A DNA stretch of 64,000 bases, taken from contig UCGV01000006.1 of the NCBI GenBank assembly GCA_900471925.1, forward strand, positions 248,001 to 312,000. Reading direction: 5' to 3'. The translations under genes were made by a program, and so were the position numbers. The notes below the pieces were generated by a model. It was not told the DNA's origin, searched no databases, and worked only from the letters and a program-made list of their open reading frames with translations. Positions 22,127 through 39,589 of this stretch are shown piece after piece. Position 1 is the stretch's first letter; every line of letters starts with the position of its first letter. The stretch is from Hyphomicrobiales bacterium (GTDB lineage: Bacteria; Pseudomonadota; Alphaproteobacteria; Rhizobiales; Rhizobiaceae).

Positions 22127-23164
22127 ATGAGCACGCCGTCGAGCCTCGTCGACATCCGCAATCTCTCGGTCGACTTCGAGAGCAATCGCCATTTCACCCG
22201 TGCTCTGCATGGCATCGACCTGACGCTGTCGCGCGGCGAAGCGCTTGGCATCGTCGGCGAATCCGGTTGCGGCAAGTCGATCACATGGATGGCGGCACTC
22301 GGTCTGCTCGGGCGCAATGCCCGCGTGAATGGGTCCGTGACGCTCGAGGGTCGGGAAATTCTCGGCGCCGACGAAGCGACGCTCAGCACGGTTCGCGGCG
22401 GGCGCATCGCCATGATTTTCCAGGATCCGTCGAGCTCGCTCAATCCGCTGCACAAGATCGGCTGGCAGCTCACCGAAGCGCTCAGGCTGCATCAGGGCAT
22501 GCGGGGTGAGGTTGCCCGCAGGGAGGCCGAGCGGTTGATAGATCGTGTCGGCATCGCCAACGCCCGCCAGCGGCTCGGCGAATATCCGCATGAATTTTCC
22601 GGCGGCATGAACCAGCGCGTCATGATCGCGATGGCGCTCGCCGGCAATCCCGATCTTCTTGTCGCCGATGAGCCGACGACGGCGCTCGATGCGACGATCC
22701 AGGCGCAGATCCTCGACCTGCTCGACGATATCAGGCGTGAGCGCGGAATGGCTCTGGTGCTGATCTCGCACGATCTCGGCATGGTGGCGGAAATGACCGA
22801 ACGTGTCGCCGTCATGTATTGCGGTCGCATCGTTGAGGACAGCCCGACGTCGGATCTCTTTGCCAATCCTGCCCATCCCTACACGCGCGGCCTGATCGCT
22901 GCCCTGCCGCGTATCGATGGCCCGCGCCAGCGCCTGATCGCCATACCCGGCACGGTGCCGCCGCCAAGCGCACTGCCGCCCGGCTGCACTTTTTCACCGC
23001 GCTGCATGCTGGCGGATGAGGACTGCCTGCATTCCGTGCCGTCCATGCGCGCAGTGGGGAAGGATGACAGGCACCTGGCTGCCTGTGTGCATCTCGGCGA
23101 CGTCTCGTCCTTCGTGCCAAAGGCTTCGGCCGCCACCCACGCAAGTGCTGCAGGAGTGATCTGA
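22127..23164 (+). CDS. Oligopeptide-type ABC transporter ATP-binding protein (DppD/OppD-like)
   Basis: 345 residues. Walker A GESGCGKS, Q-loop FQDPSSSLNP, signature FSGGMNQRV and Walker B LLVADEPTTALD. The C-terminal oligopeptide/dipeptide extension contains the cysteine cluster CTFSPRCMLADEDC. It energises the permease pair together with the next gene product. The stop codon overlaps the next ATG by one base. Confidence 0.93.
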   Translation: MSTPSSLVDIRNLSVDFESNRHFTRALHGIDLTLSRGEALGIVGESGCGKSITWMAALGLLGRNARVNGSVTLEGREILGADEATLSTVRGGRIAMIFQDPSSSLNPLHKIGWQLTEALRLHQGMRGEVARREAERLIDRVGIANARQRLGEYPHEFSGGMNQRVMIAMALAGNPDLLVADEPTTALDATIQAQILDLLDDIRRERGMALVLISHDLGMVAEMTERVAVMYCGRIVEDSPTSDLFANPAHPYTRGLIAALPRIDGPRQRLIAIPGTVPPPSALPPGCTFSPRCMLADEDCLHSVPSMRAVGKDDRHLAACVHLGDVSSFVPKASAATHASAAGVI

Positions 23165-24159
23165 TGAAGGGGGCGCTCTCCGTCCGCGCGCTGAAGCGGC
23201 ACTATACGCTGCGCCAGTGCAGCGGCCTGTTCTCGTCGGCAAAAACTCTCAAGGCGGTCGATGGCCTGACCTTCGATGTGGCGCCGGGCGAAATGTTCGG
23301 CATCGTCGGCGAAAGCGGCAGTGGCAAGTCGACGACCGCGCGGCTGCTGCTCGGCCATATTCCGCCGACTTCGGGCGAAGTCCGGTTCGGTGGCGAGAAG
23401 GTTGGCGCGGTGCCGAATGCTGAGTGGCGGCGCATGCGAAAACGCATGCAGATGATCTATCAGGATCCGCTCGGCGCGCTTGATCCGCGCATCGCCGTCG
23501 CCGGACAGATCGAGGAACCTCTGATCATCCATAATCCCGAAATGACGCCAGCCGATCGCAAGGGCCGTGTGGCCGAAGTGATGGCCGCCGTCGGTCTGAT
23601 CGCGCATCACGGCAGCCGCTATCCGCATGAACTCTCGGGCGGGCAGCGCCAGCGCGTCATCATTGCGCGCGCCCTTTCCATGGAGCCGGAACTGCTGGTC
23701 TGCGATGAGCCGGTCTCGGCACTCGACGTCTCGGTGCAGGCGCAGGTACTGAACGTCTTCGAGGATATCCTTGCCCGCACCAACTTTACCGGCGTCTTTA
23801 TCAGTCATGATCTGAAGGTCGTGCGCCAGGTCGCCGATCGTGTGGCGGTGATGTATCTCGGCAGTATCGTCGAGATGGGCACGCCGGAAGATATCCTGCA
23901 AGCGCCAGCACACCCCTACACGAAGGCGCTGGTATCGGCCGTGCCGCAGCCGGGAAGACCGGCGCGCGGCCGCATCATCCTGACCGGCGATCCACCCAAT
24001 CCGGTCAACGTGCCCTCGGGCTGTCCCTTCCACACGCGCTGCCCGGAGGTGCGTCCAACCTGCCGTTCGATCAAACCCGAACTCATCGCCGACGGCGGCC
24101 GTTCCGTCGCCTGCCATCTCGTCAACAATCCGTCGCTATCGGGCGGGGAGGCGGCCTGA
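23164..24159 (+). CDS. Oligopeptide-type ABC transporter ATP-binding protein (DppF/OppF-like)
   Basis: 331 residues. Walker A GESGSGKS, Q-loop YQDPLGALDP, signature LSGGQRQRV, Walker B LLVCDEPVSALD. The C-terminal extension again has the Cys-containing segment (CPFHTRCPEVRPTC). It forms a heterodimer with the preceding ATPase. The permease gene follows after a single base. Confidence 0.93.
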   Translation: MKGALSVRALKRHYTLRQCSGLFSSAKTLKAVDGLTFDVAPGEMFGIVGESGSGKSTTARLLLGHIPPTSGEVRFGGEKVGAVPNAEWRRMRKRMQMIYQDPLGALDPRIAVAGQIEEPLIIHNPEMTPADRKGRVAEVMAAVGLIAHHGSRYPHELSGGQRQRVIIARALSMEPELLVCDEPVSALDVSVQAQVLNVFEDILARTNFTGVFISHDLKVVRQVADRVAVMYLGSIVEMGTPEDILQAPAHPYTKALVSAVPQPGRPARGRIILTGDPPNPVNVPSGCPFHTRCPEVRPTCRSIKPELIADGGRSVACHLVNNPSLSGGEAA

Positions 24160-24160
24160 C

Positions 24161-25099
24161 ATGCTGCAATTCATTCTCACGCGCCTGTTGCGCGCACTCG
24201 TGACGCTCTTCATCATCGTCACCTTCACATTTATCATCCTGCGTGTCGCCGGCGATCCCGCGACGCGCTTCTTCGATCCGGCGCAGACGCAGCCCGAGGT
24301 GATCGAAGCCTTCCGGAAGCAATGGGGTCTCGATCAGCCGCTCTGGGTGCAGTTCTACAAGTATCTGCTCGCCATCATTCACGGCGATCTCGGAAACTCG
24401 ATGCGCGAGAACCGCTCGGCAATCGAGACCGTGCTGGCGAAGCTGCCGGCCACACTTCAGATCATGGTGCCGACGCTCTTCATCAAGACCGCGCTCGGGA
24501 TTGCGGCCGGTGTCACGGCGGCCCTGCATCGCAATTCCTTCTTCGATCGCTTCATCATGTCGCTTTCGGTTCTCGGCTTCACGGTACCGACCTTCGTGCT
24601 CGGCCTCGTGCTGGCGCTGATCTTTGCCGTGCAGCTGCGTTGGCTGCCATCGGGCGGCTATTCCACCTATTCGCATATGATCCTGCCGATCGCGACACTC
24701 AGCATTGCCGGTGCGGCGATCATCGCCCGCTACACGCGCTCGGCCATGATCGAGGTGATCGGCCGTCCCTTCGTACGCACGGCAGCGGCCAAGGGCGTGC
24801 GGTCCTCCGATATCGTCACGCGCCATGTGCTGCCGAATGCCGCTGTGCCGATCGTCACCATCTTCGGCTTCATGATGGGCAGCCTCGTCGGCGGCGCCGT
24901 CATCGTCGAAAGCGTCTTCTCCTGGCCGGGCATCGGCCGCTTGCTCGTTTCCTCGGTACAGGCACGCGATCTCGCGGTCGTGCAGGTCATCGTGCTTCTG
25001 ATCGGCGTGATGATGGTGATATCCAACCTCGTGGTCGATCTTCTCTACGGGATGATCGATCCGCGCATGCGCGGTCGCGGCCGCGGCGCAACAGCGTGA
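24161..25099 (+). CDS. Oligopeptide-type ABC permease (DppB/OppB-like)
   Basis: 312-residue inner-membrane permease with six predicted helices; the first is LLRALVTLFIIVTFTFIILRV. The DppB-type N-terminus (LQFILTRLLRA, DPATRFF) is followed by the EAA-like cytoplasmic loop (VRTAAAKGVRSSDIVTRHVLPNA) that contacts the ATPases. The usual partner of the permease encoded next. Confidence 0.92.
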   Translation: MLQFILTRLLRALVTLFIIVTFTFIILRVAGDPATRFFDPAQTQPEVIEAFRKQWGLDQPLWVQFYKYLLAIIHGDLGNSMRENRSAIETVLAKLPATLQIMVPTLFIKTALGIAAGVTAALHRNSFFDRFIMSLSVLGFTVPTFVLGLVLALIFAVQLRWLPSGGYSTYSHMILPIATLSIAGAAIIARYTRSAMIEVIGRPFVRTAAAKGVRSSDIVTRHVLPNAAVPIVTIFGFMMGSLVGGAVIVESVFSWPGIGRLLVSSVQARDLAVVQVIVLLIGVMMVISNLVVDLLYGMIDPRMRGRGRGATA

Positions 25100-25110: not shown

Positions 25111-26004
25111 ATGGCTCTCGACCAGCAAATCGCCGCAAGCGGCAGCGTCATCGAAGAGAAGAAGAAGTTTAGGGCATTTATCGAGGCCTGGCCGCCGGCG
25201 GTTCTCATCGCGATTTTCTGGCTTGCTCTGGTGATCCTCATCGCCGTGATCGCGCCGCTGATCGTGCCTTATGACTTCATGGCCGTTGACGTGCATGCTC
25301 GCCTGAAACCGCCCGTCTTCTTCGGCGGTGATTTCGCCCATATCCTCGGGACGGATCAACTCGGTCGCGACGTCTTTTCGCGGGCGCTGATCTCGATCCG
25401 CATCTCGCTGACGATCGCCATCTGCGCCACGCTGCTGTCGACGGTCGTCGGCGTGACGCTCGGCTTCATCGCAGCCTATTTCCGTGGCTGGGTCGATCAG
25501 ATCATCCTGACCCTGGTCGATGCACAGCTCGCCATGCCCTTCATGATCATTGCCATCGCCGTCCTCGCCTTCCTCGGCAACTCGCTGACGATCTTCATCA
25601 TGCTGCTCGGCCTCTATGGCTGGGAACAGGTGACCCGTATCGCCCGGGGTCTCGCGATTTCAGCCAGTGCGCAAGGCTATGCGGCAGCGGCGCGCGATAT
25701 CGGTGCCTCGCCCTGGCGCATCTATCTGCGTCACATCCTTCCCAATATCTCTGCCATGATCGTCATCGCCATGACGCTCAACATTCCCGCCGTCATCCTG
25801 CTCGAATCAAGCCTGTCCTTTCTCGGCATCGGCCTGCAGCCGCCACAGACGAGCCTCGGCAATATGGTCGGCTATGGGCGCGACTATATCCAGTCGGCGC
25901 CGTGGATCATGCTGATGCCCGCGGCTGTAATCGTCATCACGACACTCTCCGTCTCCGTCGTCGGCGACTGGCTGCGCGACAGGCTGGACCCGACGCTGCG
26001 CTAA
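25111..26004 (+). CDS. Oligopeptide-type ABC permease (DppC/OppC-like)
   Basis: 297-residue permease with the DppC N-terminal segment before the first helix, the motif LGTDQLGRDVFSR, and the EAA loop (YAAAARDIGASPWRIYLRHILPN). ATG at 25111 with GGGAGAAG upstream. Last gene of the operon. Its stop overlaps the stop of the convergent EamA gene by three bases. Confidence 0.92.
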   Translation: MALDQQIAASGSVIEEKKKFRAFIEAWPPAVLIAIFWLALVILIAVIAPLIVPYDFMAVDVHARLKPPVFFGGDFAHILGTDQLGRDVFSRALISIRISLTIAICATLLSTVVGVTLGFIAAYFRGWVDQIILTLVDAQLAMPFMIIAIAVLAFLGNSLTIFIMLLGLYGWEQVTRIARGLAISASAQGYAAAARDIGASPWRIYLRHILPNISAMIVIAMTLNIPAVILLESSLSFLGIGLQPPQTSLGNMVGYGRDYIQSAPWIMLMPAAVIVITTLSVSVVGDWLRDRLDPTLR

Positions 26005-26867
26005 CCCTTCCGCCGCTCCAGAAAGGCAACCGCCTGCAGTGTTGCGATGATGACGACGATGCCGATCAAGGTGCGCAGGTCAGGCATTTCGTCGAAGAAG
26101 ACATAGCCGCTGGCCGTCGCGAAGACGATCGAGAGATAGCCGAAGGGCGCAAGCAGGCTGGCGCTGGCAATCTGGTAAGCCCGCAGGAAGCAGAATTGTC
26201 CGAGCTGCGCCAAGAGCCCGATGCCGATAAGGGCAGGCCAGTCCTCGCCACGCACGGGCTGCCAGGTGAAGAGTGCCGGGATGACGGTGATGACCGTCAG
26301 GCCCGCCGTATAGAAAACCATCATCACGGTAGTATTCTCGTAATGCAGCATCCGCGTCTGGATCGTCGCCAGTGCCCCGAAGACGATGGAAAGCAGTACC
26401 GCGACAAGCCCAAGATTCCAGGCGAAGGTGTCGGGCGCGAGCATGATCAGCACGCCGACAAAGGCAAAGATGGCGCCGATCCACCGCCAGCGGCTGACCC
26501 TTTCGCCGAGCATCGCGACGGCCATCAGCATCGAAACCAATGGCCGCGTGAAACCGAGCGCATTGACGAGTACCAGCGGCAACATCGTGACCGCCACGAA
26601 ATTGCTGGTCAGCGCAACGGCATTGCAGCTGATGCGCATGATATTGCGCAGCGGATCCCTGGAATGGATGAGCTGCCGGCGATGCCGCCAGATCATCGGC
26701 AGGATGAGGATGAGCCCGATCAGCGCGCGGATGAAGACGAGCTGGATTGCCGGATAGGATGAGCCCTGCATCTTCACCAGCACCGTCATCCCGGTCACCA
26801 GTGTCGTGTCGGAGAGCAGCCAGACGATGCCGAAACGGCTGTCCCTGGCTGCTGTCGATGCATCCAT
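26001..26867 (-). CDS. EamA-family (DMT) transporter
   Basis: 288-residue membrane protein with about ten helices arranged as two EamA repeats; the second repeat begins near LGLVAVLLSIVFGALATIQTRML. Members move metabolites such as amino acids, nucleotides or sugars, often outward. It follows the PIG-L deacetylase gene by ten bases on the same strand and is probably the last gene of the ROK-PIG-L-EamA operon. The substrate is unknown. Confidence 0.85.
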   Translation of the reverse strand: MDASTAARDSRFGIVWLLSDTTLVTGMTVLVKMQGSSYPAIQLVFIRALIGLILILPMIWRHRRQLIHSRDPLRNIMRISCNAVALTSNFVAVTMLPLVLVNALGFTRPLVSMLMAVAMLGERVSRWRWIGAIFAFVGVLIMLAPDTFAWNLGLVAVLLSIVFGALATIQTRMLHYENTTVMMVFYTAGLTVITVIPALFTWQPVRGEDWPALIGIGLLAQLGQFCFLRAYQIASASLLAPFGYLSIVFATASGYVFFDEMPDLRTLIGIVVIIATLQAVAFLERRKG

Positions 26868-26877
26868 TTCCGCCGTC

Positions 26878-29274
26878 TCAGACAGGCTGGACGAGATTGG
26901 CGATCAGCCGGAAGGCGCCTGGTGTCAGCTTGTCGAGCTGGTGATGCAGCACGAGGCTCGTATGCGTATGCCGCCCCTTGCCGATTTCAGCTGAAATCAG
27001 CGCACCCTTGAGCGGCTGCTCTTCAGGATCGTGCATGGCAAGCAGTGGCACATAGGCATCGTCCCAGCGAGCGGCGAAATAGAGGCCGCGTTCCTTGTCC
27101 CAACTGTCCCAGTCGGCGGACGTGATCGTGTTCGGCCCCTTGAGCAGCGGATGATCGGGCACGAGCATGGTCACCTCGGCTGTCGGATCGGTCACGCGCC
27201 AGCGCACCGAGGGCGAGCCGATATGGATCCGCTTCGGCGGCGTGGCATCCGGCTGCCAGCCATCGCTGGGGCGATGATAGAGGGTCAGCAGATGCCCGCC
27301 ATTTTCGACGAAGCGATGCAGCCGGGCCGTCGCGGCCGCAAGATCCTTGCGGATACCGAAGGCGAAGATACCGACGACGATGGTGGTGAAGCGCGACAGA
27401 TCGCCCGACAGGGCTTGCGCATCGAGTTCGGTGACATCGAGCCCCATGCGGCCAAGCCAGAGCCCGACCCGATCGGCACCGCCGCCGACATAGCCGATCC
27501 TGGCACCCTTTGGCAGTTTGAGTTCGAGCGCCAGTACGCGCAGCAGTTCCGGTTCCCGGAAGCTGGTGCGGCCGATATGTGGATAGGCAATCGGCGAGAT
27601 ACGCATCGCCGGCTGACCATCGACGAGCGGTGTGATGGTGACGAGACCGGGCGCGATCGAAGCGGGCGGCGAAAGCGTAAGTGCCCCGTCAGCCGCCTTG
27701 ATCGTCCAGCCGGCCGGTGTGGAAAAGCCGACACGACCCGCCGATGCAGTCTTGACCACCATCTCCGGCCTCTCGCCGTCTACGGGGATGATGAAGGCAT
27801 TGGGCTGAAGGCTCAGCACGTGCTGCGGAGCGACCGTCAGCGGCTCCTCGAGATCGAGTGTCACCGTCACCGAACGACCGCCGATCTGTGCCCTGACATC
27901 GACGGAGGCGTTGCCATTGCCGCCAAGGCTCGACCATCCCGGCTGAAATTGCCGTGTAAGCGGTGCGTCCGTCGCGACCGCGAGGTCATAAACGATCCGC
28001 TGCGGCAAGGTTTCCTTGAGGCTTGCCGAAACGCCTTCCGGCAACAGAATATCGGCATCGACAACTGCGGTCCCTGCGTTGCCGCTGAGATGAAGGATCA
28101 GTGTCCCACCGGCTCCCGGCGAAAGCGCTGCAGGATAGGCGACCGCCCGCACGAAGACCTGTTCGGCTTCGCAAAGGGCCGCATCGATTTCCACGCGCTT
28201 GCGCCGCAGGCGATGCCCATGCGTCTCGATGAAGGCTACGGGCGCCTCCTCCAGCGCCTTGTCGATCTGATGCGCCGCCTGCAGCAATGCATCGACGATG
28301 GCGGATCGTTCCGGAAAGCGCTCGATCGCCTTGCCGATCGCGCCGTCCGCCCGCATCAGCGCATCGACGACACCCTGCGGCAGCTCCGTCTCGCGGGCGA
28401 GGTCGGCGAGCGTCGAGGGGAGCGAATCGAGGATGGATGTTTCCGCTAGAGAGCCTTGAGCGCTGAGCTTCAGATGCAGCGGCCATTCGGTGTCGCCGAC
28501 ATCGGACCAGCGGCCCATGCCCTGAGAGGCATGGTAATACCGTGACCATTCGCCGATATGGTCATAGCTCACACCGCTGACGGGTTCGAGGCTGGTGGCC
28601 TCGAGCGGCAGCGTCATGACCGGTGGCGGAACTTCGTCATCATAGGTATCGCCACCGCCGGACCAGGCGGGCAGATAGAATTTTGCAACCTGCCAGGGCG
28701 TCAGACCCTCGTCGAAATGTTCTGGAAAGGCTGAAGGATCGGCGGCAAGCCCTACAGCAGTTTCCGCCGCACGTGTCATGGCGCGGTGATGCCCATGCTG
28801 TCCCGGCACGTCGAGGAAGGTCGGCAGCACGATATCGGGACGTTCAGTGCGGTAGGCCCGCACCAGCCGCTCGACGATGCGCTTTTCGCCCCAACGGTCG
28901 AAGGTCCGGTCGCCGTTCTTGGAGAAACCGAAATCATGGATCGGATCTTCCGGACCGTGCCCGAGCCAATGCACGTCGGCATCCAGTTCAAACGCGGCCT
29001 CTTCCATCTCGCGGCTGCGCATGATGCCGAGCGCGCCGAGCCGTTCCGGTCCGAGCGCATTCTGTCCGCCTTCGCCGCGCGTCGAGCAGGCGACGATGAC
29101 GCGCATGCCGAGGCCGAGCCGCAGATAGGCGAGCAGGCCGTTGTGCTCGTCATCGGGATGGGCGCCGGTATTCATCATAGTGACGGTCGAGGTCAGGCGG
29201 GACAGCGCCCGGTGCAGCCGCGTGAGCGAAAGGCTCCGCTTCTGTTTCTCAATACGGTCTCGATCGGTCAGCAT
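26878..29274 (-). CDS. Large PIG-L (LmbE) family deacetylase with C-terminal domains
   Basis: 798 residues. The N-terminal LmbE domain carries the zinc motif H39-P-D-D-E43 and CSTRGEGGQN; members remove N-acetyl groups from GlcNAc-containing small molecules such as GlcNAc-inositol or GlcNAc-malate. A helical linker follows, then beta-sandwich segments resembling NEW3/CARDB domains. The last third looks like a class I glutamine-amidotransferase-like Rossmann fold (KGARIGYVGGGADRVG, FVENGGHLLTLYHRP). No signal peptide, so it is cytoplasmic. The substrate is probably an N-acylated amino-sugar conjugate brought in by the divergent ABC operon; that is inference. Confidence 0.8.
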   Translation of the reverse strand: MLTDRDRIEKQKRSLSLTRLHRALSRLTSTVTMMNTGAHPDDEHNGLLAYLRLGLGMRVIVACSTRGEGGQNALGPERLGALGIMRSREMEEAAFELDADVHWLGHGPEDPIHDFGFSKNGDRTFDRWGEKRIVERLVRAYRTERPDIVLPTFLDVPGQHGHHRAMTRAAETAVGLAADPSAFPEHFDEGLTPWQVAKFYLPAWSGGGDTYDDEVPPPVMTLPLEATSLEPVSGVSYDHIGEWSRYYHASQGMGRWSDVGDTEWPLHLKLSAQGSLAETSILDSLPSTLADLARETELPQGVVDALMRADGAIGKAIERFPERSAIVDALLQAAHQIDKALEEAPVAFIETHGHRLRRKRVEIDAALCEAEQVFVRAVAYPAALSPGAGGTLILHLSGNAGTAVVDADILLPEGVSASLKETLPQRIVYDLAVATDAPLTRQFQPGWSSLGGNGNASVDVRAQIGGRSVTVTLDLEEPLTVAPQHVLSLQPNAFIIPVDGERPEMVVKTASAGRVGFSTPAGWTIKAADGALTLSPPASIAPGLVTITPLVDGQPAMRISPIAYPHIGRTSFREPELLRVLALELKLPKGARIGYVGGGADRVGLWLGRMGLDVTELDAQALSGDLSRFTTIVVGIFAFGIRKDLAAATARLHRFVENGGHLLTLYHRPSDGWQPDATPPKRIHIGSPSVRWRVTDPTAEVTMLVPDHPLLKGPNTITSADWDSWDKERGLYFAARWDDAYVPLLAMHDPEEQPLKGALISAEIGKGRHTHTSLVLHHQLDKLTPGAFRLIANLVQPV

Positions 29275-29309
29275 GGTTCCTCCGTTGGGGCAGACCGGCG
29301 GCTAGCATC

Positions 29310-30527
29310 TTATGCTGCGTTATCGGCGGCGGTCGGTGATATGTCGAGTTTTGGGGTAACGGCTTCGAAAAGCGGCAGTGCCGCGGCGCCAAGGGCCGCC
29401 GTCAGCTGGCCGGTCTGGCCGCGGATGACACGCGGCAGAGCGCGCGTGCGCCGGCTGGCGACGGAGACGGGAAGCGTCTGCATGGCTGCGACGATTTCGT
29501 CTATGATGGCATCGGGCAGGGCGCCGCCGAGGATGACGGTCTCCGGATCGAGAACGTTTTCCAGCATCGCCACCATTGGCGAAAGATAGTCCGCGGTCTC
29601 CGCAATCCATTCCTTTACGACGGCGTTGCCCTCCCGGTGCAGCCCTTCGATCGCCGCAAAATCGGTATTCTCGTAACCGGCCTCGGTGAGTTTTTCCTTC
29701 AGTGCATGCAGTGAAGCGTACCGCTCGAGACAGCCGCGCTGGCCGCAGGGGCAGGGCTTGCCGCGTGGCGCGACAACGACATGGCCGATTTCGCCGGCAT
29801 TGCCGAAGGCGCCACGGAAGGGTGCGCCATCATGGATCAGGCCGAGACCGACACCGACACCAAAATAGATCATGCAGAAATTGGAGATCGCGCGGCCCGC
29901 ACCGAACAGTCGCTCGCCGACGGCCGCCGCGTTCGCATCGTTTTCGACGATGACGGTCTCGCCGCTCGCCTCGCTCAGCACTTCCGCCGGATTGATGCTG
30001 CTCCAGCCGGGCAGGGTGGTCGGGCCGACCGAACTCATCCCTTCGATCTCGAAAGGACCGGGCATGACGACGCCGATGCCGAGAAGCTTGGAAGGAAAGC
30101 GCTTGCGAACCTTCCTCACCTCGCCGGCAAACAGCGGAACGATATGTTCCGGGCTGGTATTCTCGACCGGCATGATCGTTTCCGAGCGCACCTTGCCGGA
30201 AAGGTCCAGCACCGTCGTCACCATGTGGTCGGCGGCGATTTCGACACCGATGGTGACGGCGCCGTCTGGGTTGACGGCAAACTGAATCGGCGGCTGGCCG
30301 CGGCCGGAGCGAAGCCTTCCGATTTCCATCAGCAGCTCTTCGCTGACAAGCTCATCGACAATGTTGGCAACTGCCTGCGCGGTCAGGTGCGTGAGCTTGG
30401 CGATATGCATGCGGCCGAGCGAACCGTGCATGCGCACGACATCGAGCACGACGCGACGATTGTGGTCGCGGCTGCGCTCGGGGTTCTTACCCATCGCGAT
30501 CTGCTGCTTGCCGGATTGCCGTGTCAT
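29310..30527 (-). CDS. ROK/NagC-family transcriptional regulator
   Basis: 405 residues. N-terminal winged HTH (about 35-65, GRMHIAKLTHLTAQAVANIVDEL), then a ROK sugar-binding domain. The zinc motif CPCGQRGCLE near residues 255-270 and GHVVVAPRG are the family signature. ROK repressors respond to sugars or sugar phosphates such as GlcNAc-6-P or xylose. It is divergent from the sugar ABC operon (259-base gap) and upstream of the PIG-L gene, so it probably controls both. Confidence 0.9.
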   Translation of the reverse strand: MTRQSGKQQIAMGKNPERSRDHNRRVVLDVVRMHGSLGRMHIAKLTHLTAQAVANIVDELVSEELLMEIGRLRSGRGQPPIQFAVNPDGAVTIGVEIAADHMVTTVLDLSGKVRSETIMPVENTSPEHIVPLFAGEVRKVRKRFPSKLLGIGVVMPGPFEIEGMSSVGPTTLPGWSSINPAEVLSEASGETVIVENDANAAAVGERLFGAGRAISNFCMIYFGVGVGLGLIHDGAPFRGAFGNAGEIGHVVVAPRGKPCPCGQRGCLERYASLHALKEKLTEAGYENTDFAAIEGLHREGNAVVKEWIAETADYLSPMVAMLENVLDPETVILGGALPDAIIDEIVAAMQTLPVSVASRRTRALPRVIRGQTGQLTAALGAAALPLFEAVTPKLDISPTAADNAA

Positions 30528-30586
30528 CTCTCCGCCCTCGTCTCTGCCGATATGGATAGCGCCGATATCATGAAATGAGCAATAGA

Positions 30587-30604
30587 ATAATTAAACTAAA
30601 TTAT
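30587..30604. promoter_or_regulatory. AT-rich inverted repeat, candidate ROK operator
   Basis: ATAATT (30587-30592), spacer AAACTA, AATTAT (30599-30604), in a markedly AT-rich patch between the two divergent operons. TTGACA at 30609-30614 directly follows and could be a -35 element of the rightward operon, though no good -10 is visible. NagC/Mlc-type operators are AT-rich imperfect palindromes. Confidence 0.45.
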
Positions 30605-30786
30605 CTTATTGACAAAACCCTCCGTCCGAACCAGCCTGAAGAGGTCGCAATGCGATGCCGAGGAAGAGGAGCCTCAGTTCCATCTTCCCGAGCCAATCAA
30701 ATCGGGGCGCTGTTGATTTGCGGGATGCCCTGGGGAACCGGATAAGCGCGAGCGGCTCGAATGCCGGCTCGGCAATGGAGGATAAT

Positions 30787-32043
30787 ATGCGTCGCGGAAT
30801 TTTATTTGCCGGCCTGTTTGCAGGCATCAGCATGGTCGCGGCCAATAGTGCCCAGGCGGTCGAAATCGAATATTGGCAGTATGTCTACGATACGCGCGTC
30901 AAGGCGATGGACCAGCTGATCGCCAATTTCGAAAAGGCCAATCCCGACATTACCGTCAAGCAGACGACCTTCCCTTATGCCGATTACCAGACGCGCGTCG
31001 TCGCCGCCAATCTCGCCGGCAATGGCCCTGATGTCATGCAGCTCTTCTATGGCTGGCTCGATCAGTTCATCGCCGGCGGCCTGCTGCAGCCGCTGCCGAC
31101 GGATGCTTTCGCGCATGACCAGATCGAGAAGGATTTCTTCCCGATCGTCACAGCCATGAAGCGTGGCGACGATTACTACGGCCTGCCGACCGCCGTGCGT
31201 TCGCTGGCGCTCTTCTACAACAAGAAGCTCTTCCAGGAAGCCGGTCTTGATCCGAACAAGCCGCCGCAGACGGTCGATGAATTCGTTGCCGCCGCCGAAA
31301 AGACCGTCAAGCACGATGCCGCAGGTAATATTACCGTTGAAGGCACGACGCTCGACATGGGCGGCCAGGATCACCAGTGGTGGCGTGAAGTGCTGATCCG
31401 CCAGTATGGAGGCGAGCCCTATACGGCTGATTATTCCAAGGTCACCTACAACAGCGATGCCGGTATCAAGGCACTGAAGTTCTACACCAGCCTGCAGACC
31501 GAAAAGAAGGTCGGCCAGACCGGCTTCATGGATGAAGGTCAGGCTGCCTTCCGCGGCGGCAAGGCGGCGATGACGATCGACGGCACGTTCCGTCTCGGCT
31601 CCTTCGGCAGCATCAAGGATTTCGAATGGGGCGTCACCGAACTGCCGGCCAATGCCGACGGCCTGCGCTCCAACTATGCGAGCTATTTCGCGAACGGCAT
31701 CGGCGCCAAGGTTTCGGGCGAAAAGCTGGAGGCTTCCAAGAAGTTCCTCGCCTACGTGACCTCGCCGGAAGCCATGAAGGTCTGGCTCGGCACGGTCGGC
31801 GAACTGCCGGCTCGCCGCGAAGCTGCTCTCACCGACGAAAACCTCAAGAACCCGATCTATGCGCCGTTCCTGAAGGCCCTCGCATACGCACACACCTCGC
31901 TCTTCGTGGATGAAGCCGGCCAGCGCCAGAACGCCATCGACATGGTCAATCGCGTTCTCCTCGAGGGACAGTCGCCCGAGGATTCCATTGCTCAGGCCGC
32001 AACCGCCGAGCAGGAAATCATCGACAATGCCAAGAGCAAATAA
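30787..32043 (+). CDS. Sugar ABC transporter substrate-binding protein (SBP_bac_1)
   Basis: 418 residues. Signal peptide about 1-23 (RGILFAGLFAGISMVAANSAQA). Cluster D binding protein of the MalE/UgpB type: WQYVYDTRVKAMDQLIANFEKANPDI, VVAANLAGNGPDVMQLFYGW, and GKAAMTIDGTF. The ATG at 30787 is preceded by GGAGG six bases away; upstream in-frame starts (from 30655) lack one and would spoil the signal peptide. It delivers a mono- or oligosaccharide-like ligand to the permeases encoded next. Confidence 0.92.
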   Translation: MRRGILFAGLFAGISMVAANSAQAVEIEYWQYVYDTRVKAMDQLIANFEKANPDITVKQTTFPYADYQTRVVAANLAGNGPDVMQLFYGWLDQFIAGGLLQPLPTDAFAHDQIEKDFFPIVTAMKRGDDYYGLPTAVRSLALFYNKKLFQEAGLDPNKPPQTVDEFVAAAEKTVKHDAAGNITVEGTTLDMGGQDHQWWREVLIRQYGGEPYTADYSKVTYNSDAGIKALKFYTSLQTEKKVGQTGFMDEGQAAFRGGKAAMTIDGTFRLGSFGSIKDFEWGVTELPANADGLRSNYASYFANGIGAKVSGEKLEASKKFLAYVTSPEAMKVWLGTVGELPARREAALTDENLKNPIYAPFLKALAYAHTSLFVDEAGQRQNAIDMVNRVLLEGQSPEDSIAQAATAEQEIIDNAKSK

Positions 32044-32052
32044 GGGACGGCC

Positions 32053-33000
32053 ATGAGCTCCGCACCCGCGAATACGGAAGGGGCGGCTATCAGCCGTCCC
32101 GCCGGATCGTTCTGGGATCGGCTGACGATGCGCCAGAAGCGCCTCGTCTGGGTCTGGACATTCCTCGCCCTGCCGATCCTGTTTTACTGCGTGATCCGTT
32201 TTTATCCGACGCTGCAGGCCTTCTACCTGTCCTTCACCAATTGGAACCTGATGAAACCGCCGAAATTCATCGGCGTTGCCAATTACGTGAAGCTCTATAA
32301 CGACCCGCAGTTCTGGAAGGTATTTCGCAACACCTTCACCTATCTCATCATCGGCACACCGCTGAGCCTCATCATCTCTTTCGTCGTGGCCTTCTTCCTG
32401 GATCGCGTGCGTTTCCTGCACGGGCTGATCCGCGCGCTTTATTTCCTGCCGTTCCTGACGACGGCCGCCGCAATGGCCTGGGTCTGGCGCTGGTTCTACC
32501 AGCCGGCCCCGATCGGCGTTATCAATGATGTGCTCGGCATGATCGGCCTGCCGCAGCAGCAGTTCATCCGCTCCGTCGATCAGGCGCTGCCGTCGATCAT
32601 GGTGACCTCCATCTGGGCCGGCCTCGGCTTCCAGATCATCATCTTCATGGCTGGCCTTCGCGCCATTCCGAGCACCTTCTACGAGGCTGCGAAGATCGAT
32701 GGTCTTGGTGAATGGCCGATCCTGTGGAAGATCACGCTGCCGCTCCTGAAGCCGACGACCGTCTTCCTCGTCGTCTTCTCCTCGATCGGCTTCCTGCGCA
32801 TCTTCGACCAGGTCTACAACATGACGACCAACGATCCCGGCGGCCCGCTCGGATCGACCAAACCTCTGGTTCTCATGATCTACCAGACGGCCTTTTCATC
32901 CTACAACATGGGTTATGCAGCGGCTCAAACCGTGGTGCTCTTCGCCATCCTGCTCTGTGTCTCCCTGCTGCAGCTCTGGATCCTGAGGGAGCGCAAATGA
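32053..33000 (+). CDS. Sugar ABC permease (MalF/UgpA type)
   Basis: 315 residues, about six helices. The EAA loop reads TFYEAAKIDGLGEWPILWKI. The N-terminal segment before the first helix (FWDRLTMRQKRLVW) is typical. The stop overlaps the next start as ATGA. Confidence 0.92.
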   Translation: MSSAPANTEGAAISRPAGSFWDRLTMRQKRLVWVWTFLALPILFYCVIRFYPTLQAFYLSFTNWNLMKPPKFIGVANYVKLYNDPQFWKVFRNTFTYLIIGTPLSLIISFVVAFFLDRVRFLHGLIRALYFLPFLTTAAAMAWVWRWFYQPAPIGVINDVLGMIGLPQQQFIRSVDQALPSIMVTSIWAGLGFQIIIFMAGLRAIPSTFYEAAKIDGLGEWPILWKITLPLLKPTTVFLVVFSSIGFLRIFDQVYNMTTNDPGGPLGSTKPLVLMIYQTAFSSYNMGYAAAQTVVLFAILLCVSLLQLWILRERK

Positions 33001-33854
33001 GTGCCGTGACGACAAACAACGCGGCACCGCTGCCGAAAGCCAATATTCGCCCCGGCGCCATCATCACCTGGACGCTTCTCTTCATCGGCGGCCTCATCAT
33101 GGTCTCGCCGCTGCTCTTCATGTTTTCGACCTCGCTGAAGACCGCAGGCCAGGTCTATGACCTGCGCCTCATTCCGGCCGAGCCGACCCTGCAGAATTAC
33201 ATCACCGTTCTCTCGGACGGCCGCTTCATGCGCTGGTTCCTGAATTCGACGATCGTTGCCTGCACGGTGACGCTCTCGAACGTCTTCTTCGACAGCTTGG
33301 TCGGCTATACGCTTGCCAAGTTCGAGTTCCGCGGCCGCTACCTCATCTTCCTCGCGATCCTCTCGACCCTGATGATCCCGACGGAAATGCTGGTCATTCC
33401 CTGGTATCTGATGTCGGCACAGCTCGGCTGGCTCGACAGTTATTGGGGCATCATGTTCCCCGGCATGATGACGGCCTTCGGCACCTTCCTCATGAAGCAG
33501 TTCTTCGAGACGGTCCCGAACGACTTTCTGGAAGCGGCCCGCATCGATGGCCTCAACGAATTCCAGATCTGGTGGAAAGTGGCGATGCCGCTGGTGACAC
33601 CTGCACTGTCGGCGCTGGCGATCTTCACCTTCCTCGGCAACTGGACGGCTTTCTTCTGGCCGTTGATCGTCACCACCAGCCGCGAACTCTACACGCTGCC
33701 GGTCGGCCTCTCGAGCTTTGCCGTCGAGCAATCCATCCAATGGGAAATGATCATGACCGGTGCGGCGCTCGCGACATTGCCGACGCTCATCGTCTTCCTG
33801 GTGCTGCAGCGCTACATCGTGCGCGGCGTCATGCTGGCCGGTCTGAAGGGATAA
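32997..33854 (+). CDS. Sugar ABC permease (MalG/UgpE type)
   Basis: 285 residues, about six helices, EAA loop FLEAARIDGLNEFQIWWKVAMP. It starts at the ATG overlapping the stop of the preceding permease. The C-terminus ends VMLAGLKG, common for this family. The lyase gene follows after three bases. Confidence 0.92.
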   Translation: MSAVTTNNAAPLPKANIRPGAIITWTLLFIGGLIMVSPLLFMFSTSLKTAGQVYDLRLIPAEPTLQNYITVLSDGRFMRWFLNSTIVACTVTLSNVFFDSLVGYTLAKFEFRGRYLIFLAILSTLMIPTEMLVIPWYLMSAQLGWLDSYWGIMFPGMMTAFGTFLMKQFFETVPNDFLEAARIDGLNEFQIWWKVAMPLVTPALSALAIFTFLGNWTAFFWPLIVTTSRELYTLPVGLSSFAVEQSIQWEMIMTGAALATLPTLIVFLVLQRYIVRGVMLAGLKG

Positions 33855-33857
33855 GAC

Positions 33858-35372
33858 ATGACCGAAACCAATCCACGCCTTGCCGACAGGAGCGTCTTTC
33901 CTGATCCGGTCTATAAGGAAACGGTGCTGAAGCCGCTTTTCGATGGCGCCAAGACCCACCATGTCGATGGCTTCCGCCGCATCGATCGCGCCCATCTCGT
34001 CATGCTGGTCGAAACCGGCATTCTCGACCGCGAACAGGCCGGCAAGATCGCCGCAGCTCTCGAAGCGATCGATCGCGACATCGACCCGGAAAAGCTCGTC
34101 TATACCGGCGAAGTCGAGGATTTCTTCTTTCTCATCGAGAAGGAACTGAAGGCCCGTATCGGCGTCGATATCGCAGGCCGCCTGCACACGGCGCGCTCGC
34201 GCAACGATATCGACCAAACGCTGTTCAAGCTCGGCCTGAAGGAGCGCATCGACGCGCTGATGGTCAAGGCACGCAAGCTGCTCGATGCGATGATCGCCAC
34301 GGCCGACTGGGAAAAGGAGACGCTGATCGTCGCCTACACCCATGGCCAGCCGGCCCAGCCGACCACCTTCGGCCATTATCTCGCAGCAGCGATCGAGGTG
34401 CTGATCCGCGATATCGAGCGCTTTGCCGAAGCCCGCGAGATCGTCAACCTGAGCCCGATGGGCGCTGCGGCGATCACCACATCCGGATTCCCGATCGACC
34501 GTGCCCGCGTCGCCGAACTGCTGGGCTTTGCCGCGCCTCTGCGCAATTCCTATAGCTGTATTGCAGCCGTCGATTATACGACGTCGACCTACAGCGCGAT
34601 CGAGCTGATGTTCCTGCATCTCGGCCGCCTGATCCAGGATTTCCAGTTCTGGACGAGCTTCGAGGTCGGCCAGATCTATGTGCCGAATGCGCTGGTGCAG
34701 ATCTCCTCGATCATGCCGCAGAAGCGCAATCCGGTGCCGATCGAGCATATGCGCCATCTCGCGAGCCAGACCTTCGGTCGCGCCCGCACCGTGCTCGACG
34801 TCATGCACAATACGCCCTTCACCGACATGAACGACAGCGAGGGCGAAACGCAGGGCATGGGCTACGAAGCCTTCCACGCGGCCGGCCGTGTGCTCGATCT
34901 GCTGGCCGCCTTCGTCGCTCAGATCAGCATCGATCCGCAGCGCGTGGCAGATAATATCCGCCGCTCATGCATCACCATCACCGAGCTCGCGGATTCGCTG
35001 GTGCGCCTCGAAGGGCTTTCCTTCCGGCAGGCGCATGAGATTGCCGCAACGGTCGCCCGCGCCGTGGTTGCCAAGGGCGGTGGTCTCTCGGATGACGGCT
35101 ATGAGCCTTTCCTCGCAGCATTCGAGGAACTGGCCGGCCGCAGACCCGGCGTCGACAAGGCACAATTTGCCGAGATCGTCTCGCCGGAACATTTCGTTGC
35201 CGTCCGCGCCCGCTTCGGCGGTCCCGCGCCGGCACCGATGGCGGATGCGCTTGCAGCCTACCAGGAAAAGGCTGCCGCATTCGCCACACAGGCACAGGAG
35301 AATGCAGCGCGCGAAGCCGCCGCTGCCGAGGAACTTCACACCAGATTTACAGCATTGATGGGGGCCGCCTGA
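33858..35372 (+). CDS. Argininosuccinate-lyase-like enzyme, divergent (fumarase/aspartase superfamily)
   Basis: 504 residues, longer than biosynthetic ArgH (about 460). Superfamily motifs are present: LHTARSRND near residue 110, [15 protein letters not shown], and the signature loop [11 protein letters not shown] at 282-292 with the expected catalytic serine S283 and K289. Several positions differ from true ArgH: the loop starts with I instead of G, KKNPD is KRNPV, and the SDRD-type segment is AAVDYTTS. The gene sits inside a sugar ABC operon, not with arg genes. It most likely eliminates fumarate from an N-substituted aspartate-like substrate, as EDDS lyase does; the substrate is unknown. 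Confidence 0.8.
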
Positions 35373-36403
35373 TGGCAAATATCGAACTGCAGGGGCTCGT
35401 CAAACGCTATGGCAAGCTGGATGTCGTCCACGGCATCGATCTTTCGATCGCTGATGGCGAGTTCGTCGTCTTCGTCGGCCCGTCCGGCTGCGGCAAGTCC
35501 ACGACGCTGCGCATGATCGCAGGCCTCGAAGATATCTCCGGCGGCACGCTGAAGATTGGCGGCGAGGTGGTGAACGAGCGCGAGCCGAAACAGCGCAACA
35601 TCGCCATGGTGTTCCAGAACTACGCCATCTATCCGCATATGAGCGTGCGCCAGAATATCGGCTTTGGCCTCTACACGTCTAAGCTCTCGCAGTCGGAAAA
35701 GGACAAGCGCATCGACGAGACGGCGCAGATCCTCGGGCTGACGGACTATCTCGCCCGTCGTCCGGCGGCACTTTCCGGCGGCCAGCGCCAGCGTGTCGCG
35801 ATCGGTCGTGCCATGGTGCGCAATCCCTCCGCCTTCCTCTTCGACGAACCCTTGTCGAACCTCGATGCCCAGCTGCGCACGCAGATGCGCATCGAGATCA
35901 AGCGCCTGCACCAGCGCCTGGGCACGACGATCGTATACGTCACCCACGATCAGGTCGAAGCCATGACGATGGCTGACCGCATCGTCGTCATGAAGGATGG
36001 CCATATTCTGCAGGCGGGAACGCCGATGGATCTCTATGAGAACCCGGTCGACGTCTTCACCGCGCGCTTCATCGGCAGCCCGTCGATGAACCTTCTGCCC
36101 GGCACCGCTGCCACCGATGGTTTGCGCATCGGGCAGGGCGGGCCGCACCTGATCGGCGTGCGTCCGCACGACCTTGTCATCGGCGAGGGGGCGGGCGTCC
36201 TGTCCTTGTCGGGCACGGTAACGGCTGTCGAGCCGCTCGGCGCCGAAACGCTGGTGCATTTCGATGTGGCGGGAACATCGGTGATTGCAACCGCACCCGG
36301 TAAGGTGATACCGGCCGTCGGCAGCGCCGTGACTGCCAATGCCGCCGCCGGTGCTCTCTATGTTTTCGATGCAAAAACGGAAAAGGCCCTCGGGCGCCAA
36401 TGA
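35372..36403 (+). CDS. Sugar ABC ATP-binding protein (UgpC/MsmK/MalK type)
   Basis: 343 residues. Walker [11 protein letters not shown]-loop [10 protein letters not shown], signature LSGGQRQRV, Walker [13 protein letters not shown]-loop YVTHDQ. The C-terminal regulatory beta domain is present ([12 protein letters not shown]). ATG overlaps the lyase stop (TGATG). It powers the MalF/MalG-type permeases encoded upstream. Confidence 0.93.
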
Positions 36404-37296
36404 CATCTGATAATGACATGCGATCCGCGGTGCTCAGCATCGGCCGGATCTACTGCGACCTGATATTCACGGGGCTGGAGACCATGCCCGTGCTCGGGCG
36501 TGAGCTCTTTGCCGATGACCTGCGAATTGCGGCAGGTGGCGGCGCATTCATCATGGCCGCCTATTCCGCCCATATCGGCCGCAAGACGGTGCTGCTTTCC
36601 CGCCTCGGCACTGATGGACTTTCCAATGGCCTGACAGGGGAACTGCAGGCAAGCGGCGTGGACCTGCGCTTTCTCGACCGTGCCGCCGACGCCGGTCCGC
36701 AGGTTACCGTTGCCATCAACAATGGCGAGGAGCGGGCATTCCTGTCCCGTCGGGCCGGCGGCGCGGAGCCGGCGACGCTCGCCGAGGCGCTTGCCTGGAA
36801 CGAGGCGCGACATCTGCACATTGCCGAATTCGCGACACTTGCGGAAATCCCCGGCCTTGTCGGAAAGGCGAGGGAATGTGGCCTCACCGTATCGCTCGAT
36901 CCAAGCTGGGACGAGACTCTGATCTACCGGCCGGATTTCCTTGATCGCTGTCAGGGTGTCGATCTCTTCCTGCCGAATGTCGAGGAAGCCGTTGCCATCA
37001 CAGGATGTTCCGATCCGGCCGAAGCGTTGGAAAGGCTCGCCCGGCACTTCCCGGCTGTGGCGTTGAAAGCCGGTGCGGGCGGTGCCTATTTCGCGGCCGG
37101 CGAGCTCAGGCTCCATCAGGCCGCCCCGACCGTCAAGGTCGTGGATACGACCGGGGCAGGCGATGCCTTCAATGCCGGGCTGATCCACGCCTGGCTTGGC
37201 GGCGCGAGCGCCGATATTTTTCTGCGTGAAGGCATTGCCATGGGCAGCCTCGCGGTCCAGGCCGCCGGCGGCGCTGCGATCCTGCCCGCACGCTAG
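36400..37296 (+). CDS. PfkB-family carbohydrate kinase
   Basis: 298 residues of the ribokinase fold. N-terminal substrate region ([35 protein letters not shown]) and C-terminal signature [12 protein letters not shown] near residues 249-260 with catalytic Asp. It phosphorylates a sugar or sugar derivative released from the imported compound. It overlaps the ATPase gene by four bases and is last in the operon. FrlD-type (fructosamine), KdgK and fructokinase relatives are all possible. Confidence 0.88.
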
Positions 37297-37561: not shown

Positions 37562-38860
37562 ATGGACAATCTGGAGCCTGGCAAAGAGACCGGTTCTGTA
37601 ACGGGTGCCAATGCCGACCTGGCTGCGGTGCTGGCTGTCGGCAAGCGGAGCAGGGGGCGTCGTTGGCGCGGGCGCCTCATCGTTCTGTTGCTCCTGATCC
37701 TCGCTGGTGCCGCCGCCGCCTATTTCTACTCGGGCCGCAGCCGCGCCGAAGTGAGCTATACGACCCAGCCGGCCAAGCGTGGAGACCTGACGGTACTCGT
37801 CACGGCCACCGGTTCTGTCCAGCCGACGGAGCAGGTGGATATATCGAGCGAATTGTCGGGCACGATGCGCGACGTCAATGTCGATTACAACAGCACCGTC
37901 AAGGCGGGCGATGTTCTCGCCGTCCTCGACACGAACAAGCTGGAAGCCGACGTCAAAAGCTCGCGTGCCAAGCTGAACTCGGCAAAGGCCAACGTCGTCA
38001 AGGCGAATGCCGATCTGCAGTCGGCCGCGACCTCGCTCGAACGCCTGAAAAGCCTTGTCAAAGGCAATGTCACGACCCAGCAGAGCGTCGATGACGGAAC
38101 CTATAAGTATGACTCGGCCGTTGCCGCCAAGGATATCAACGAGGCCGAGGTGCTGGCCTCGGAGGCCGACCTGCAGCTCGCTGAAGTCAATCTCGCCAAG
38201 GCAAAGATCGTCTCGCCGATCGACGGCGTGATCCTGACGCGCTCCGTCGATCCGGGCGCCACGGTCGCCGCCTCCTTGTCGGCGCCTGTTCTTTTCACCA
38301 TTGCCGGCGATCTGAAGAAGATGGAGCTGCAGGTGGATGTCGATGAGGCCGATGTCGGCCAGATCGCCGTCGGCCAGAAGGCGAGCTTCACGGTCGATGC
38401 TTATCCGGATCGTACCTTCCCGGCCGTCATCGAGCAGATCCGCTTCGCCTCCGAAGTCGTCAACAATGTCGTCACCTACAAGGCTGTTCTTACGGTTGAT
38501 AACGCCGACCTGCTGCTGCGCCCCGGCATGACGGCGACGGCCGATATCACCGTCGAGGCCGTCAAGGATACGCTGATGGTGCCGAATGCCGCCCTTCGTT
38601 ACGCTCCCCCGCAGGCGGAGGGGCGCGGCGGTCGCGGTATCTTCAGCCTGTTCCGTGCCCCGCGTCCGCCGCGCAGCGGCGGTGGCGGTGACGCCAAACT
38701 GACCGGCACGCAGCGCCGCATCTTTGTGCTGCGCAACGGCCACCCGGCACCTGTGGTGATCCAGGTCGGTTCCTCGGATGGCCAGTTCACGCAGGTCACC
38801 TCGGGAGAACTGACCGACAAGGATGCTGTGATCACCGATGCCTCGGCGCGGACGAACTGA
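37562..38860 (+). CDS. MacA/HlyD-type periplasmic adaptor subunit
   Basis: 432 residues. A single membrane anchor lies near residues 37-55 (LIVLLLLILAGAAAAYFYSG) after a cytoplasmic N-terminus. Lipoyl, coiled-coil and beta-barrel regions of the RND/MacA adaptor family follow (GDLTVLVTATGSVQPTEQVDISSELSG; AKIVSPIDGVILTRSVDPG). A Gly/Arg/Pro-rich low-complexity insert lies between the barrel and C-terminal domains. With the two genes downstream it should form a MacAB-type tripartite exporter. No outer-membrane channel gene is present, so a TolC is recruited from elsewhere. Confidence 0.9.
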   Translation: MDNLEPGKETGSVTGANADLAAVLAVGKRSRGRRWRGRLIVLLLLILAGAAAAYFYSGRSRAEVSYTTQPAKRGDLTVLVTATGSVQPTEQVDISSELSGTMRDVNVDYNSTVKAGDVLAVLDTNKLEADVKSSRAKLNSAKANVVKANADLQSAATSLERLKSLVKGNVTTQQSVDDGTYKYDSAVAAKDINEAEVLASEADLQLAEVNLAKAKIVSPIDGVILTRSVDPGATVAASLSAPVLFTIAGDLKKMELQVDVDEADVGQIAVGQKASFTVDAYPDRTFPAVIEQIRFASEVVNNVVTYKAVLTVDNADLLLRPGMTATADITVEAVKDTLMVPNAALRYAPPQAEGRGGRGIFSLFRAPRPPRSGGGGDAKLTGTQRRIFVLRNGHPAPVVIQVGSSDGQFTQVTSGELTDKDAVITDASARTN

Positions 38861-38869
38861 CGGGAGCCG

Positions 38870-39589
38870 ATGATGGAACGCCCGCCGCTTCTCGAATTCA
38901 GGCATGTCTCGAAAATCTATGGCGAGGGCGATGCGGCCATCCGCGCGCTCGACCGCGTCGATCTTACGATCCGCACGCATGAATTCGTTGCGATCATGGG
39001 GCCGTCCGGCTCCGGCAAATCGACGGCCATGAACATTCTCGGCTGCCTCGATGTGCCGACCTCTGGCGACTATGTCTTCCAGGGCATTTCCACCAGCGGC
39101 TTCGACCGTGGCCAGCTGACGCTGCTGCGCCGACATATGCTGGGTTTCGTTTTCCAGGGCTTCAACCTGTTGCCGCGCACCTCGGCCGTCGAAAATGTCG
39201 AACTGCCGCTGATCTATCGTGGCATGGCGGTCGGCGAGCGGCGCAAGCGGGCGAGAGAAGCTTTGGGCCTTGTCGGACTGTCGGGCCGGGAGCATCACAA
39301 GACGCAGGAACTCTCCGGCGGCCAGCAGCAGCGCGTGGCGATCGCCCGCGCCATCGTCACCGAGCCGGCTCTGCTGCTCGCCGACGAGCCGACCGGCAAT
39401 CTCGATACAAAGACCAGCATGGAGATCATGGATCTGATGACGCGCCTCAACCGCGAGCAGGGCATCACCATCGTCATGGTCACGCACGAACCTGACATTG
39501 CCGCCTATGCGGGGCGCCTGCTGCGCTTCGTCGATGGCAAACTGGAAACCGAGGCGGCGCATCAGCGGAGGGCGGAACATGTTCTTTGA
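38870..39589 (+). CDS. MacB-type ABC exporter ATP-binding protein
   Basis: 239 residues, LolD/MacB ATPase class. Walker [10 protein letters not shown], signature [14 protein letters not shown], Walker [14 protein letters not shown]-loop MVTHEPD. In E. coli MacB the ATPase is fused to its membrane part; here it is a separate gene overlapping the permease gene by 11 bases. Two adjacent ATGs begin it; the ribosome site GGGAG precedes both. Confidence 0.92.

Follow-up and report, generated by a model that had tools for sequence, protein, structure and literature searches.

The window analysed here, a 64,000-nucleotide stretch of a 7.16 Mb Hyphomicrobiales genome (Rhizobiaceae; GenBank GCA_900471925.1, contig UCGV01000006.1, positions 248,001 to 312,000), carries a divergent nine-gene cassette at 26001-37296. 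Judged from gene content and conservation, this is a real, conserved catabolic cassette carried by soil and marine bacteria related to Rhizobium, and no description of it was found in the literature searched. We propose, with a probability of roughly 60%, that it encodes a regulated import-and-degrade pathway for an N-acylated amino-sugar conjugate. The families that a first-pass annotation had given to the nine genes were recovered by Pfam, and its gene positions hold for all nine except for two starts, those of the binding protein and MalG, which are corrected in the following list.

26001..26867, minus strand: EamA/DMT transporter, an optional member (Pfam EamA, 4.3e-28)
26878..29274, minus strand: large PIG-L/LmbE-type metal hydrolase with beta-sandwich and ThuA-like C-terminal domains (Pfam PIG-L, 4e-16)
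29310..30527, minus strand: ROK-family transcriptional regulator (Pfam ROK, 5.1e-47)
30580..30611, no strand: candidate ROK operator, a 32-base AT-rich inverted repeat, CAATAGAATAATTAAACTAAATTATCTTATTG (from conservation)
30787..32043, plus strand: extracellular sugar-type solute-binding protein (SBP_bac_1, 3.3e-37)
32053..33000, plus strand: MalF-type permease (BPD_transp_1, 4e-15)
32997..33854, plus strand: MalG-type permease (BPD_transp_1, 7.8e-19, scored on a longer open reading frame)
33858..35372, plus strand: argininosuccinate-lyase-like enzyme of a separate subfamily (Pfam Lyase_1 and ASL_C2)
35372..36403, plus strand: MalK/UgpC-type importer ATPase (Pfam ABC_tran and TOBE_2; NCBIfam UgpC, 458 bits, cut-off 432)
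36400..37296, plus strand: PfkB-family sugar kinase, a predicted amino-sugar 6-kinase (PfkB, 6.4e-37)

ATG 30787 is the most likely start of the binding protein and yields 418 amino acids with a ribosome-binding site and a signal peptide, matching the annotated Aminobacter copy in length; the open reading frame from 30655 is a longer reading. MalF follows after 9 bases; from MalF through PfkB, neighbouring genes either share 1-4 bases or are separated by 3, and MalF overlaps MalG, whose start is ATG 32997, by 4 bases. Pfam and NCBIfam place the importer in the MalEFGK/UgpABCE type of ATP-binding cassette (ABC) transporters, consisting of an SBP_bac_1 protein, two BPD permeases, and a MalK/UgpC ATPase with a TOBE domain. 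The NagC and Mlc models are the top NCBIfam matches of the ROK protein, both below cut-off.

A scan of genome contigs returned 203 lyase relatives, and the best 80 of these were taken as near loci, each count being given over the loci whose contig reaches far enough. They fall in Rhizobium, Neorhizobium, Agrobacterium, Aminobacter, Brucella, Mesorhizobium, Devosia, Microvirga, and other genera, with lyases 95-97% identical in the named relatives Rhizobium sp. BK418 and BK316, which suggests a Rhizobium-like host. The binding protein is present in 78/78 near loci and MalF, MalG, and MalK in 79/79 each; PfkB accompanies them in 73/79. Relatives with these importer, lyase, and kinase genes also retain the ROK gene (77/78) and the PIG-L gene (74/78; 72 with more than 95% coverage and two cut by contig ends). 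Leaving EamA aside, gene order and orientation are constant in nearly all 80 relatives, and the flanks otherwise vary. The cassette is self-contained, since the next recurrent clusters of open reading frames occur in at most 11 of the 80 loci, once opposite-strand or split-looking versions of cassette genes are set aside. Chance adjacency of the two arms is ruled out by this synteny, together with linkage in distant genomes. The EamA gene, which the first-pass annotation had counted as part of the unit, is found in only 44 of 76 near loci and is ruled out as a core gene. The efflux genes downstream (37562-40781) were likewise rejected as core, as just seven of the 80 loci, the nearest ones, have them at high identity. 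A record titled Bacillus subtilis SK6B4 (L066) carries the cassette at much the same identities as the Pseudochrobactrum loci L062 and L067, and is probably a mislabelled or contaminated assembly.

Distribution of the cassette is patchy within the genus, where 5 of 37 genomes, the window's own included, hold a copy at 81% identity or above. Overall, the gene set spans Hyphomicrobiales, Rhodobacterales, and Rhodospirillales. Of 385 genomes in one sample of the class, 12 carry the lyase (E up to 1e-85) and 10 the cassette PIG-L (E up to 1e-40), all 10 lying within the 12; the Fisher p for this co-occurrence is 4e-18 by genome and 6e-14 by genus, uncorrected for shared ancestry. The PIG-L gene stands beside the cassette in nine of these 12 genomes, on another contig in one (G483), and is absent from two (G653 and G658), the former of which carries a NagB-II-like gene. 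In a 398-genome sample of the phylum, six genomes had the lyase, all of them in the window's class by their labels, and PIG-L was confined to five of these six. In the sixth (G437, locus L169), PfkB is followed by a NagB-II-like gene, and the stretch contains no PIG-L. Three loci of a single genus (L124-L126) have no adjoining sugar importer, but their lyase and PIG-L genes are still neighbours in divergent orientation; an alternative importer is indicated there by an SBP_bac_5 (Opp/Dpp-type) protein confirmed beside two of them and an Opp-type permease downstream in the third. The cassette lyase was also matched on 27 plasmid records. Sixteen of these plasmid neighbourhoods were examined, three of them unannotated and read by tblastn only, and 11 contain PIG-L. 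Among the other five, a deaminase is present in L165 and L170, and neither gene in L166, L172, and L175. PIG-L is thus not the constant member that had been supposed at first, as it is missing from some distant cassettes and from these five of 16 plasmid neighbourhoods.

The two arms diverge from a region that holds the 32-base inverted repeat. With up to 6 mismatches, this repeat recurs in 71 of 77 divergent regions, those of the four NagB-II variants included, and nowhere else in those 77 loci, counts that are inflated by near relatedness; the scanned consensus was itself drawn from the same loci. It is also present in Thalassospira (L164) with 2 mismatches. Palindrome scores of the motif sites (9-12 of 13) overlap the maxima of shuffled sequences (9-11), so the case for the repeat rests on its conservation. 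We regard it as a candidate ROK operator.

In the proposed pathway, the ABC importer would take up a conjugate of N-acylated glucosamine, or a close amino sugar, with a succinate-type C4 dicarboxylate. The PIG-L enzyme would strip the N-acyl group, and the argininosuccinate-lyase-like enzyme would free the dicarboxylate as fumarate by beta-elimination. The PfkB kinase, elsewhere a ROK kinase, would phosphorylate the freed amino sugar, and a glucosamine-6-phosphate deaminase, housekeeping or cassette-encoded, would pass it on to glycolysis. In cassettes that include EamA, this transporter may carry a released by-product out of the cell, and the ROK protein would repress both arms through the shared repeat. 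Cassettes lacking PIG-L would take a non-acylated compound. We infer every reaction, the step order, and the substrate from the observed gene content, linkage, motifs, repeat, and deaminase and ROK-kinase variants.

The AlphaFold model of the PIG-L protein is of fair quality (mean predicted local distance difference test score 84.5) but less reliable at 107-116, 154-159, and 205-217, segments that lie partly near the active site. It bears out the three-part architecture proposed for the protein by the first-pass annotation, running from an LmbE domain (about 28-290) through a helical stretch and beta-sandwich domains (about 371-584) to a ThuA-like C-terminal domain (589-798). By fold, the N-terminal domain matches LnmX (Z 19.0), MshB (18.7), diacetylchitobiose deacetylase (17.5), and BshB (16.4), and the C-terminal domain matches ThuA-like proteins (Z 15.1). 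The HXDD and distal histidine metal site is complete (H39-P40-D41-D42 and H163). H39, D41, D42, R86, H160, and H163 are invariant in 44/44 rows of the structure alignment (43 of 72 usable rows, plus the window) and in 13/13 rows comprising the window and 12 distant members. In PMC4101496, the PIG-L/LmbE family, with BshB and Bca among its enzymes, is described as acting on N-acylglucosamine. On sequence and model, the window protein is a predicted N-acylglucosamine amidase. It shares the metal-ligand motif and N-terminal fold with MshB, BshB, Mca, and Bca, but differs from them in its length of about 800 amino acids, its extra beta-sandwich and ThuA-like domains, and its weak matches to their hidden Markov models (HMMs).

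Our tentative lead for the substrate is an N-acylated glucosamine-O-malate, namely bacillithiol, its conjugates, or N-acetylglucosaminyl malate. Bacillithiol is Cys-GlcN-malate, built on a glucosaminyl malate (GlcN-malate) backbone. To our knowledge, this backbone is, among known compounds, the N-acylated glucosamine with a group removable by an aspartase/fumarase-type enzyme. In a possible route of bacillithiol catabolism, which we put forward with reserve, PIG-L would convert Cys-GlcN-malate (or N-acetylglucosaminyl malate) to GlcN-malate, and the lyase, as a glucosaminyl-malate lyase, would give glucosamine and fumarate. The kinase and glucosamine-6-phosphate deaminase would follow, and the cysteine would leave through EamA or, in one relative, be oxidised by a thiol dioxygenase. 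That relative, Roseinatronobacter (L173), carries a gene annotated as cysteine dioxygenase family after ROK, PIG-L, and EamA on the same strand. The best solved matches of its product are 3-mercaptopropionate, cysteine type I, and mercaptosuccinate dioxygenases (E 9e-14 to 1e-10 for the first two), and a thiol dioxygenase is what a cysteine-releasing PIG-L would predict, in this single case. BshC has no match in the window's own genome, by a search that was positive in 3 of 14 control genomes, so that consumption rather than synthesis of bacillithiol would be at issue. We know of no catabolic pathway for bacillithiol in other bacteria. Among the matches listed in our literature searches, none described such a pathway by title or the start of its abstract, and the searches returned no paper joining PIG-L with argininosuccinate lyase. 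The consulted part of PMC6282198 argues that bacillithiol derivatives are the most widespread bacterial thiols; neither there nor in the consulted part of PMC12817932 is there anything on bacillithiol catabolism. A pyridoxal-phosphate enzyme of class V aminotransferase fold lies near the Loktanella cassette (L171:13194-14642), and a like-named one near an Aminobacter cassette; a role in sulfur-amino-acid metabolism would fit a cysteine-releasing pathway.

The same scheme might act on another conjugate, a possibility that we likewise hold as tentative: a plant or microbial compound in which an N-acyl amino sugar is N-linked to aspartate or the amino sugar is not glucosamine. All the support for the malate form applies here too, apart from the identity of malate; against it, no such natural compound is known to us, no dedicated search having been made.

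The sugar end of the proposed pathway is further defined by variants of the cassette. A NagB-II-like SIS protein occurs in exactly four of 78 near loci (L070, L083, L087, and L089), those without PIG-L, and directly after PfkB; the two that were scanned scored 305 and 317 bits (model cut-off 430). Similar proteins were found in L132 (311 bits), Roseomonas L165 (313), and L169 (316), again below the cut-off of 430 and with no PIG-L in the stretch. An unrelated nagB follows the ROK kinase in Paroceanicella L170, which has no PIG-L, and in Loktanella L171, as in its near-copy L177, nagB and PIG-L lie side by side. The nagB products of L170 and L171 score 242 and 251 bits against the TIGR00502 equivalog cut-off of 236.9, and well under the cut-off for 6-phosphogluconolactonase. 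A strict alternation of PIG-L and deaminase was considered and set aside: among the loci read it is true of NagB-II, but in Loktanella PIG-L and NagB coexist. At the place of PfkB, a ROK kinase is found in L131, L165, L170, L171, and L177; a gene of the Asp/Glu/hydantoin racemase family adjoins the first of these (L131:6109-7155). NagB-II-like genes also occur outside the cassette, namely in 12 of 13 genomes with PIG-L cassettes; the window's own genome has one such gene (279 bits).

These glucosamine-6-phosphate deaminase genes further back the N-acyl amino sugar and kinase step suggested by the first-pass annotation. The NagB genes of Paroceanicella and Loktanella raise our confidence in the general scheme, and the gene variants lend fairly good support to an amino-sugar route that ends at glucosamine-6-phosphate. 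Kinase HMMs were uninformative as to substrate, their best matches being generic and far below cut-off. Like nag-type amino sugar operons, the cassette has a ROK regulator and, in its variants, a kinase with NagB or NagB-II; it differs from them in the absence of NagA and in the additional fumarate-type lyase.

An Amadori pathway of the frl/fra kind would read the same genes differently. Fructosyl-aspartate or -asparagine would be imported, the lyase or PIG-L would split the sugar-amine part, and PfkB would be a fructosamine 6-kinase. A sugar-type ABC importer and a PfkB kinase also occur together in the B. subtilis frl operon, an operon treated in PMC12632257. Against the fructoselysine 6-kinase model the kinases score weakly (42 bits for the window, 61 bits for L087), and the lyase could free fumarate from an N-substituted aspartate. 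However, the window cassette lacks the SIS deglycase and has an extra lyase and PIG-L, and we know of no role for PIG-L in an Amadori pathway. The variants encode glucosamine-6-phosphate deaminases: their SIS proteins match NagB-II (305-317 bits) far better than fructoselysine-6-phosphate deglycase (26-40 bits), and true NagB is found in two lineages. ROK kinases, moreover, stand in for PfkB. We therefore consider this pathway improbable.

The lyase is predicted from its sequence to be a fumarate-releasing enzyme of a separate subfamily. It shares the fold, the SRND, TH, and SSIMPQK-NP signatures, and the length class of ArgH (TIGR00838). H162, S283, K289, N291, and E296, to which we assign catalytic-type roles by delta-crystallin numbering, are conserved in 41 rows of the structure alignment (40 of 79 usable rows, plus the window) and in 14 distant members. 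The motif Y-(N/S)-(K/R)-D-x-Q-E-D-K, which we take to be the leaving-group side of ArgH, is present in the genome's own ArgH and in three solved ArgHs, the four that make up the ArgH side of this comparison, and absent from 15/15 rows of the lyase family. The corresponding ArgH stretch YSKDMQEDKE is exchanged in the window lyase, with D323, N325, D326, and E328 retained in 14/14 distant rows. This changed pocket motif would point to a cationic leaving group in place of arginine. Further differences from the own ArgH are THGQPAQP for THLQTAQP, the change of the KGLPLAYSKDMQEDKE stretch, and the location of the window lyase in an import operon. On TIGR00838, the own genome gives 614 bits for ArgH, 380 for a second homologue, and 309.6 for the window lyase, which ranks third. 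The window lyase was thus set aside as the genome's ArgH, because a 614-bit ArgH lies elsewhere and the ArgH motif is lost; the earlier suspicion that it is something other than an ordinary ArgH agrees with these sequence comparisons. The second homologue (L003, C46:5181-6461) is itself non-standard, with ALADVNDG at the ArgH motif, and is possibly another mislabelled lyase.

EDDS lyase (6g3d) is the best Foldseek match of the window lyase (E 3.3e-23). The enzyme might accordingly act on an iminodisuccinate-type chelator or another N-substituted aspartate, with PIG-L, kinase, and deaminase forming a separate, co-controlled sugar route, and importer and lyase do stand alone in some cassettes (L166, L172, and L175). 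Identity to EDDS lyase is, however, 24-25%, and phmmer ranks the solved ArgHs above it (190-171 versus 167-163 bits). The pocket also differs, because V293 and M324 align with EDDS-lyase D290 and Y320, the residues changed in a variant titled D290M/Y320M. Together with the linkage of PIG-L and lyase, which persists across lineages and importer types, this makes a chelator-type substrate doubtful. No paper pairing EDDS lyase with argininosuccinate lyase was found in our literature search. Recruitment of a second, functional ArgH to a place next to a sugar operon is a very improbable account of the lyase, given the own 614-bit ArgH and the motif lost in all 15 family rows aligned, even though the enzyme exceeds the TIGR00838 cut-off (309.6 versus 279.5 bits) and is named argininosuccinate lyase in 13/13 annotated plasmid records examined. 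Among all 27 plasmid matches, 22 are named as the arginine-synthesis enzyme and the other five have no annotated feature there.

Several observations weigh against the proposed amino-sugar conjugate pathway or its parts. GalB, which matches the PIG-L domain with Z 16.0, is a hydratase of the same fold, so the rule that PIG-L proteins are deacylases has exceptions, and against the Mca, MshB, and BshB2 models PIG-L scores far below cut-off. PIG-L and deaminase are both missing from the stretch read in five cassettes (L127, with PIG-L on another contig, L133, L166, L172, and L175); in L172 and L175 the regulator is of LacI type and no kinase was seen. PfkB is absent from 6/79 near loci. A second NagB-II copy lies elsewhere in three of the four near genomes with a cassette NagB-II (17 of 18 genomes were covered in this check), which argues against a simple gap-filling role of the cassette copy; the preferred substrate of the latter may be a different amino-sugar phosphate. 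D-x-N-D in the lyase pocket motif is not unique, since the own C46 homologue has it too. At up to 9 mismatches, L123-L136 and L165-L167 gave no match to the repeat. As to bacillithiol, a thiol dioxygenase is present in only one of 111 loci searched, the L173 protein has no Pfam or NCBIfam match, and no result shows that the dicarboxylate is malate or that the bond is of C-O type. Local replacements for the missing PfkB were also sought among some neighbours of L090 and L099, two of the six loci lacking it; those scanned (proline dehydrogenase, PPK2, PhoX, and a DAO oxidoreductase) are unrelated.

Elsewhere in the window, five scanned genes just upstream of the cassette (17787-25099) encode a type I phosphodiesterase, an SBP_bac_5 protein, a calcineurin-like phosphoesterase, and an Opp-type ABC ATPase and permease, a row suggestive of a system that takes up and cleaves a phosphodiester compound. 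At 44380-51821, a PnrA-like (nucleoside-type) binding protein lies near a double ABC ATPase, with another double ABC ATPase close by. The glmU-like and glmS-like genes at 54644-57940, 17 kb from the cassette, look like housekeeping genes.

If the proposed pathway is correct, the argininosuccinate lyase annotation of this family is wrong, and its members would catalyse a new fumarate-releasing reaction on an amino-sugar conjugate. Should the substrate be a glucosamine-O-malate, C-O elimination of a glycoside would be a new reaction in the aspartase/fumarase superfamily, and GlcN-malate would offer a directly testable candidate for bacterial bacillithiol consumption. The cassette would then represent an undescribed route by which Gram-negative bacteria consume a thiol cofactor of Gram-positive bacteria.

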